From: Bacteroidales bacterium
Lineage (GTDB): Bacteria; Bacteroidota; Bacteroidia; Bacteroidales; F082
Direction of reading: 5' to 3'
Length of the DNA: 47,599 nt
Assembly: GCA_017649945.1 (NCBI GenBank)
Contig: JAGCFU010000048.1
Location: forward strand, 1 to 47,599
Below are positions 47,122 through 47,493 of the stretch, piece after piece. The translations under genes were made by a program, and so were the position numbers. The notes below the pieces were generated by a model that saw only the letters and a program-made list of their open reading frames with translations, had not been told where the DNA came from and searched no databases. Every line of letters begins with the position of its first letter. Position 1 is the first letter of the stretch.

Positions 47122-47220
47122 TGGTTCCAAGCGGACTTCTTGGAGCAGCGAGAGCAAAGACAAAGAATTTGGTTTTGCCGAGTCGTGACAAGAAGCCGCA
47201 AAATTTTGGAACAAAATTTT
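47122..47220 (+). repeat. Structured tRNA-Gly leader repeat, copy 1
   Basis: This 99-base element precedes the first tRNA-Gly and recurs as copy 2 exactly 200-202 bases later. Stems: A, GTTCCAA (47124-47130) with TTGGAAC (47206-47212); B, GCGG plus CTTCTT (47131-47141) with AAGAAG plus CCGC (47190-47199); C, a hairpin at 47154-47178 (GCAAAG..CAAA with TTTG..TTTTGC). An alternative 12-bp hairpin D pairs CCGCAAAATTTT (47196-47207) with AAAATTTTGCGG (47213-47224), whose last four bases are the first bases of the tRNA. B and D use the same CCGC and cannot form together. Loops GGAGCAGCGAGA and GAGTCGTGACA are conserved between copies. Confidence 0.8.
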
Positions 47221-47293
47221 GCGGAAATAGCTCAGTTGGTAGAGCACGACCTTGCCAAGGTCGGGGTCGCGAGTTCGAGTCTCGTTTTCCGCT
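47221..47293 (+). tRNA. tRNA-Gly (GCC), copy 1
   Basis: A 73-base cloverleaf: acceptor GCGGAAA with TTTCCGC, D arm GCTC..GAGC, anticodon stem CGACC/GGTCG with loop TTGCCAA (anticodon GCC at 47254-47256), T arm GCGAG TTCGAGT CTCGT (with one G-T pair), discriminator T. CCA is not encoded. It reads GGC and GGU glycine codons. It is identical to the second copy. Confidence 0.97.
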
Positions 47294-47323
47294 CACGGTT
47301 CTTTAAAATATTTAAGAATCTCA

Positions 47324-47420
47324 TGGTTCCAAGCGGAGTTTTTGGAGCAGCGAGAGCAAAATCAAATTTATTTGTTTTGCCGAGTCGTGACAAAAACCCG
47401 CAATTTTTGGAACAAAAATT
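47324..47420 (+). repeat. Structured tRNA-Gly leader repeat, copy 2
   Basis: Second copy of the leader, 97 bases, ahead of the second tRNA-Gly. Stem A: GTTCCAA (47326-47332) with TTGGAAC (47407-47413). Stem B: GCGG plus GTTTTT (47333-47343) with AAAAAC plus CCGC (47392-47401). Hairpin C: 47356-47380 (GCAAAA..CAAA with TTTG..TTTTGC). Alternative hairpin D: CCGCAATTTTT (47398-47408) with AAAAATTGCGG (47414-47424), loop GGAAC. Compared with copy 1, the inner part of B changes from CTTCTT/AAGAAG to GTTTTT/AAAAAC, and D from AAAATTTT to AATTTTT, always keeping pairing. A small hairpin (47297-47320) separates it from the first tRNA. Confidence 0.8.
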
Positions 47421-47493
47421 GCGGAAATAGCTCAGTTGGTAGAGCACGACCTTGCCAAGGTCGGGGTCGCGAGTTCGAGTCTCGTTTTCCGCT
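47421..47493 (+). tRNA. tRNA-Gly (GCC), copy 2
   Basis: A 73-base cloverleaf identical to the copy 200 bases upstream, with anticodon GCC at 47454-47456. CCA is not encoded. It is preceded directly by leader repeat copy 2 and followed after 13 bases by tRNA-Leu. Confidence 0.97.

Follow-up and report, generated by a model that had tools for sequence, protein, structure and literature searches.

A REP-like hairpin repeat of Bacteroidales before tRNA-Gly genes and its possible upkeep as a structured leader

Two identical tRNA-Gly(gcc) genes lie near the end of a contig of a Bacteroidales bacterium (JAGCFU010000048.1; the whole stretch of 47,599 nt that was analysed is called the window here), and each of them is preceded by a leader of 97-99 nt that can be folded in more than one way. 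The locus raises the question of what such a leader is: a dedicated RNA, a switch acting on the tRNA, or the trace of an element that spreads. The reading favoured here, to which a rough probability of just under one half is given, is that a repeat fused to tRNA-Gly and has been kept as a structured leader, which would hold the nascent 5' end and slow RNase P; it draws on sequence comparison and on predicted folds.

Two leaders behind mutS

The upstream gene is mutS (44337-46943; Pfam MutS_I-V), a conserved neighbour that marks the orthologous locus in other species. All features described here up to the second tRNA-Gly gene lie on the forward strand. Upstream of the first unit there is a promoter-like motif of the TAnnTTTG type (TACTTTTG, 47084-47091), which would fit the Bacteroidetes promoter consensus. 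Unit 1 consists of the 5' arm of stem A (GGTTCCAA, 47123-47130), a leader clamp, GCGG (47131-47134), with the same four bases as tRNA positions 1-4, the REP-like core (47133-47196; 78.4 bits with the covariance model R1, see below), CCGC (47196-47199), and hairpin D (47200-47220), whose 3' arm ends at tRNA position -1. The core comprises stem B, an internal loop with two tandem G.A motifs, and hairpin C, and the CCGC could pair with either the leader GCGG or the tRNA GCGG. tRNA-Gly(gcc) copy 1 follows at 47221-47294. Unit 2 has, by sequence and fold, its clamp GCGG at 47333-47336, its core at 47335-47398 (79.9 bits), CCGC at 47398-47401, and hairpin D at 47402-47420, which again ends at -1; it is followed by tRNA-Gly(gcc) copy 2 (47421-47494) and by tRNA-Leu(taa) at 47507-47592. 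The spacer between tRNA-Gly 1 and leader 2 contains a boxA-like sequence, GGTTCTTT (47297-47304); it occurs in the spacers of other species too and may mark an antiterminated tRNA operon.

The two tRNA genes are identical across 74 nt, and the leaders (47122-47218 and 47324-47420) share 82% identity across 97 nt, which bears out the preliminary description of a leader copy before each gene. Stem B is indeed compensated between the copies (CTTCTTG/CAAGAAG vs GTTTTTG/CAAAAAC, both changes), and hairpin C differs in sequence with its pairing kept, as had also been noted. The predicted folding energies of the leaders, -37.9 and -35.3 kcal/mol, compare with shuffle means of -20.9 and -18.9 (z = -5.08 and -5.53), and none of 200 shuffles folded equally well. 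Hairpin D is perfect in both copies and includes the CCGC/GCGG pairs as claimed, but it measures 13 and 12 bp (47196-47208 with 47212-47224, and 47398-47409 with 47413-47424) rather than 12 and 11 bp; against shuffles, the D hairpins reach z = -5.45 and -5.00. The partner of the stem A arm in unit 1, TTGGAAC (47206-47212), lies inside D. Because stem A (GGTTCCAA/TTGGAAC) and D have bases in common, they are mutually exclusive, just as had been proposed.

A dispersed repeat and its tRNA-Gly-linked branch

A search pattern made from the most conserved core bases matched 22 stretches in genome contigs titled Bacteroidales, Bacteroidia, Bacteroidetes, Bacteroidaceae, or Prevotellaceae. No tRNA was found within 1 kb behind the core in 20 of these 22 loci; the exceptions are locus L030, with tRNA-Gly behind the copies, and locus L031, with two copies 82 and 714 nt before tRNA-Pro. 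Model R1, built from 34 core copies, had at least 43, 144, 82, 99, 10, 114, and 56 matches in seven other named genomes, for each of which up to 150 candidates were scored. The window's own genome, with three matches, is thus not one of many copies, and in genome G130 the two matches that stand before tRNA-Gly equal those of the genus member G103 in contig number, coordinates, and scores. Across the order, R1 matched at E<=1e-4 in 31 of 247 genomes and 26 of 166 genera (own genus included); in a phylum-wide sample, the only one of 296 genomes with a match at E<=1e-6 was the window's own. The internal loop (GGAGCAGCGAGAGC/GCCGAGTCGYGAC), which is conserved on both sides without complementarity and does not differ in dispersed copies, would allow two tandem G.A motifs and an A bulge. 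Judged from sequence, the inner hairpin (stems B and C) is a dispersed REP-like repeat of Bacteroidales. The idea that the leader core is a tRNA-specific RNA class does not survive this wide dispersal, and, as the core is a dispersed repeat, the suggestion that the structure reflects how the unit spreads becomes part of the answer.

Several observations on the wider family were made alongside. Most printed matches of a weaker R1 group (L130-L137, L144-L147, and nine matches in G001) have only the inner motif GCGAGNGCA/TGCCGAGCG in common (one tandem G.A and an A bulge), and this group may represent a superfamily of Bacteroidales hairpins. A weak match of 33.5 bits (G000, C84:44914-44978) recurs with equal scores in G109, G017, G090, G099, and G011, six genomes in all; its flanks are near-identical in the three loci printed (L099, L138, L142), and Rfam had no match at L099 and L142. 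By eye, some copies in genome G124 (L031, L250) lie within longer palindromic composites with ends like AGATAGG...CCTATCT. Two genus genomes carry core copies inside open reading frames (L064, 1501-1566; L128, 401-462), the latter directly behind an ATG. Plasmids and phages yielded one distant R1 match each, in unannotated stretches. The resemblance between core and tRNA-Gly, weighed by eye, was put down to chance.

The dispersal invites a different reading, which we hold to be possible but somewhat unlikely, namely that the repeat is purely selfish, that its hairpins are signals for spread as single-stranded DNA, and that the tRNA is merely a landing place. CCGN at the foot of D would then pair with the adjoining GCGG because target recognition uses such pairing; in IS200/IS605 elements, guide sequences recognise the target by pairing. 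This reading gains from the copy number itself (at least 144 in one genome) and from the flanks of dispersed copies. Of 90 matches, 60 were chosen after those below 50 bits and near-duplicates had been dropped, and the 58 distinct copies used have flanking direct repeats with a mean of 7.19 nt vs 5.01 nt in permuted flanks (maximum 5.59 of 200). Flanking inverted repeats showed no excess in this test (4.81 vs 4.67 permuted, maximum 5.00). Since many flanks are low-complexity tandem repeats, the direct repeats can be called duplication-like only, short of a proven target duplication; at five loci (L037, L039, L041, L080, L263), tandem repeats such as AGTGAATAGTGAA run on past both ends of the copy. 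Copies lie in sense orientation behind a gene in 32 vs 13 cases, a preference that is only a hint because the open reading frame calls are crude and the pattern is loose, with some false matches; 27 of 72 matches fall inside an open reading frame call.

The selfish reading loses ground where the enzyme is concerned. The Y1 transposase (PF01797) was found in three of the seven many-copy genomes but not in the other four (G124, G125, G126, and G129, with at least 144, 82, 99, and 56 R1 matches), nor in the window's own genome, all of which may be incomplete; in all, four of 12 genomes searched have it (G123, G127, G128, and G130). An origin as a RAYT-associated repeat was rejected on the strength of these absences. 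No unpaired GTAG or CGTC tag common to the copies was found at one hairpin end in the alignment and listings, inspected by eye.

Within the window's genus, R1 matched at E<=0.01 in 59 of 99 genomes and in none of the other 40, some of which are incomplete. In the genus loci fetched, R1 gave 65 matches at E<=1e-9, and every one of them was inspected. A tRNA-Gly gene lies within 330 nt downstream on the same strand in 60 of them (54 adjacent to the gene, six as the upstream unit of a tandem array), the other five lie elsewhere, and none of the 65 has a tRNA-Gly on the opposite strand within 400 nt. Counted from these strong matches, 43 of the 99 genus genomes carry a tRNA-linked unit. Homologous matches mostly sit before tRNA genes in the genus and rarely do so in the pattern-matched dispersed loci, and the single orientation at tRNA-Gly speaks against a purely selfish repeat. 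All 59 tRNA-linked units that are complete start with GCGG (a further unit is truncated where its contig ends), while the stem B pair that follows varies freely (C-G, A-T, or G-C) and the 3' partner of the leader GCGG is CCGC, CTGC, TCGC, CCGA, CTGA, or TCGA. Such freedom on one side only would be expected of a partner that has to pair with the tRNA end, itself invariant, as well; alternatively, GCGG may have been duplicated at insertion, and its presence at both ends of the tRNA units counts in favour of the selfish reading.

In 69 of the loci fetched, some being repeats of a single genome, a mutS-like tail precedes the tRNA-Gly cluster, and there the unit may stand before one of the tRNA genes (the first or the second), before both, or before none. 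Other species have empty sites at this same locus; at the first position, the bases up to CAATTCGCAA are equal with the unit (L065) and without it (L066). Fifty distinct spacers were collected between tandem tRNA-Gly genes, their lengths counting the last two tRNA bases, so that a spacer of 9-11 nt is a gap of 7-9 nt. Such short gaps without any unit are common (the commonest spacer of this kind occurs at nine fetched loci), spacers with a core unit measure 93-302 nt, and a core unit is missing from two long ones (L054, and L309, which contains a tRNA-Leu).

Hairpin D at the tRNA 5' end

Hairpin D ends exactly at -1, with 4-10 pairs, in 43 of 44 distinct core leaders flagged by script; in the exception, L124, it is broken or gone, which counts as evidence against a kept leader. 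The first leader of L007, missed by the core filter, also has D, so that 44 of 45 core leaders are flush at -1. The foot of D pairs with three to four of the four tRNA bases: the preliminary claim that D takes in the tRNA GCGG holds insofar as the CCGN foot is kept across tens of species, but the CCGA class pairs three bases, not four. Among 33 distinct versions of D (25 from core leaders and nine from core-less ones, one being in both), the arms form a mean of 6.0 pairs from the foot inward, and at least four pairs in 31, as compared with a mean of 1.44 and at most 2.85 in 2000 trials in which arms were swapped between versions.

Six linkers between tandem units, from five genomes, served as a comparison. 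Counted flush, they have 0, 0, 0, 2, 2, and 2 pairs, and a hairpin forms on folding alone in 27 of 33 D versions vs one of six linkers; that D is weak in five of six linkers not adjoining a tRNA again argues against a purely selfish repeat. The contrast is not clean, because the linker of L047 has a strong hairpin of seven pairs that ends 2 nt before the next GCGG and because all six linkers pair once the CCGN/GCGG feet are included; these retained feet, and the one retained hairpin, are what the selfish reading would expect. A further point against it comes from unit-like leaders that have no core, recognised by eye, of which 11 of 14 keep the order GCGG-stem-CCGN-D (e.g., L069-L073); the 46-nt spacer of L067 consists of the stem and D only. 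A proper D is missing in three core-less leaders (L054 second, L112 first, and L320), the first two of which stand outside the 33 versions.

Being flush with the tRNA and having a clamp is uncommon elsewhere: three of 77 tRNA-Gly upstream regions of other genera pass, and among 31 tRNA upstream regions of the window's own genome (35 tRNAs listed) those that pass are the two tRNA-Gly(gcc) leaders and one tRNA-Arg (one of 29 others). A general tRNA-leader feature was rejected on these counts. The CCGC found just after promoters in leaders without the unit was likewise excluded as a sign of capture, a GCANNCGCAAA-like start being common, by eye, in Bacteroidales leaders of any tRNA. At a tRNA-Lys(ttt) gene (L157; G000, C4:49841), a hairpin of seven perfect pairs directly abuts the 5' end, but there is no clamp.

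The kept-leader reading joins these strands as follows. A dispersed REP-like hairpin repeat would have inserted exactly where a tRNA-Gly(gcc) gene begins, with GCGG remaining on either side, and would since have been retained as a structured element of the precursor. In the transcript, D and the CCGN foot would hold the nascent 5' GCGG until the 3' CCGC of the tRNA emerges approx. 70 nt later; the leader copy of GCGG, together with stem A where present, would then win CCGN back through branch migration, and the tRNA 5' end would be released. As a helix that ends at -1 should slow RNase P, the leader is probably a holder and a brake for the maturation of tandem identical tRNA-Gly rather than a ligand-sensing switch. 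The origin from a dispersed hairpin repeat with later upkeep as a structured leader is the best-supported part; the sequences show the dispersed family, the occupied and empty sites at one locus, the single order GCGG-B/C-CCGN-D-GCGG(tRNA), the covarying stems, and a D that directly adjoins tRNA position 1. A tolerated parasite would explain the tandem units, the direct repeats at dispersed copies, and the erosion of the core equally well. The 40 genus genomes without an R1 match and the frequent short gaps without a unit also count against a kept leader.

Predicted folding of the precursor and the strand that folds

The folding of the precursor was predicted at equilibrium, and the values below stand for molecules without tRNA tertiary structure or modification. 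In the best predicted fold of copy 1, which is the branch-migrated one, the leader GCGG pairs with the tRNA 3' CCGC and D captures the tRNA GCGG; the probability of capture is 0.66, or 0.77 with one more 3' base and rescaling. For copy 2, stems A and B together with a normal acceptor stem are favoured (0.41 or 0.53 captured). With D as the only part of the leader left, both copies reach a capture of 1.00, and with a leader that begins at the GCGG clamp, without stem A, 0.98 and 0.99. In the growing transcript of the window copies, capture amounts to 0.52-1.00 until the 3' CCGC appears and to 0.53-0.54 thereafter. Twelve CCGC-type leaders of other species, folded with the full tRNA from the first GCGG (no stem A), remain captured at 0.98-0.99; such lasting capture, if real in the cell, would be harmful and is hard to square with an active tRNA. 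Leaders of the CCGA type are mostly predicted to release (0.02-0.54 captured at position 2), with the exceptions of L012 (CTGA; 0.85) and the second leader of L055 (0.72 at positions 3-4), and their capture during growth varies widely.

The preliminary description had proposed two exclusive states, with the tRNA 5' end free or captured. Near balance between them is predicted in the window, but stem A, which makes one of the two, is present in only 12 of 50 distinct tRNA-adjacent units and absent from 38, a departure from that description. It seems unlikely that a mobile hairpin repeat became a switch for the tRNA 5' end, with a decoy of the first four tRNA bases in the leader and a branch migration over four bases that determines if the nascent tRNA-Gly end stays in hairpin D or is set free to fold and be cleaved by RNase P; if it were true, the cell could control the pace or the order in which tandem identical tRNAs mature.

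Still less likely is a regulator proper, in which the alternation of A and B (tRNA free) with D (captured) would answer a signal such as the demand for tRNA-Gly or a protein bound to the G.A loop. The predicted balance in the window would suit it (0.77 and 0.53 captured, compared with 1.00 once the leader upstream of D is removed), as would a stem A that, judged by eye, stays paired in the 12 units that have it despite wobbles and a double change in L056. It is weakened by the 38 units that lack stem A, by a conserved loop that is identical in dispersed copies and is therefore not tRNA-specific, and by the absence of the unit from many species of the genus, which makes any control by it dispensable.

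The sequences also bear on which strand folds. When 34 homologous cores are aligned, both sides have changed in 17 of 22 pairs (shuffle mean, 10.7), which indicates that the homologous stems do covary. The aligned sequences are related, and the cells are not independent, also in the mismatch counts that follow. Among the non-Watson-Crick cells of stems B and C, G.A outnumbers C.T by 69 to 6 in genus copies and by 103 to 3 in dispersed copies, with G.T:A.C at 42:26 and 37:55, many of these cells stemming from the badly aligned tip of hairpin C. With the tip left out, G.A:C.T is 53:1 (genus) and 68:2 (dispersed), and G.T:A.C is 24:9 and 20:13. The sense-strand G.A bias argues against a fold of the other strand; it would fit folded RNA and folded single-stranded DNA alike, and the latter also suits the selfish reading. 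Covarying pairs and strand-biased mismatches thus support the earlier claim that selection acts on a single strand in its folded form. That the covariation was produced by palindrome correction (template switching) in double-stranded DNA, without selection on the fold, is very improbable, for such correction has no strand preference and so is contradicted by the G.A bias and, with the tip of C left out, by the G.T excess, as well as by internal-loop bases conserved on both sides though not complementary, even if near-perfect D palindromes in AT-rich DNA and the failure of G.T to exceed A.C in dispersed copies with the tip included (37 vs 55) would suit it.

Comparison with known systems

Like the riboswitches and structured RNAs of Rfam, the unit is a covarying structured nucleic acid before a gene, but it matches no family there: neither leader nor core matched any of 4227 families at the gathering score, and with a relaxed E-value added, the window leaders, genus loci, and dispersed copies gave only tRNAs, one cobalamin riboswitch, and chance-level matches. 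A description of the repeat family was not found in the open-licence papers searched on Prevotella/Bacteroidetes REPs, repeats at tRNA genes, and candidate RNAs upstream of tRNAs.

Bacterial dispersed palindromic repeats of the GTAG and CGTC families are short hairpins with tens to hundreds of copies, mostly intergenic and sometimes within genes, and CGTC REPs, some of which occur in Bacteroidetes, are reported to have no dedicated transposase (PMC3733652). The repeat described here resembles REPs and REPINs in being a short hairpin with many dispersed copies per genome, and its copies inside open reading frames (L064, L128) recall the REP-like elements described within genes (PMC3733652). It differs from CGTC REPs, for which stems of 8-9 bp and loops of 4-5 nt are given there (PMC3733652), in being a compound hairpin of approx. 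66 nt with two tandem G.A motifs, and from REPs and REPINs in that the PF01797 gene is absent from four of seven many-copy genomes and that one branch is fixed before one tRNA. By sequence, it would represent a REP-like family that belongs to neither the GTAG nor the CGTC type, and one of its branches appears to have become a tRNA leader. At one conserved locus in one genus, the occupied, eroded, and empty sites form a natural test set for the effect of a repeat insertion on tRNA maturation and for the possibility that a repeat turns into a functional RNA element.

Stem-loops in the leader and base pairing close to the cleavage site hinder RNase P, and the order of processing in the E. coli valVW operon depends on such a stem-loop (PMC9433436). 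The tRNA-Gly units are similar to valVW (PMC9433436) in having a leader stem-loop by tandem isoacceptor tRNAs; here, inhibition of RNase P would be expected. In particular, D at -1 in 44 of 45 core leaders would, by sequence and prediction, place a helix next to the cleavage site in the manner of RNase P anti-determinants. Unlike valVW (PMC9433436), the units also have a foot that would pair with tRNA positions 1-4, a competitor in the form of a second copy of the tRNA end within the leader, and an origin in a repeat, and they bring together dispersed palindromic repeats and the processing of tRNA precursors, two subjects that are seldom treated jointly.
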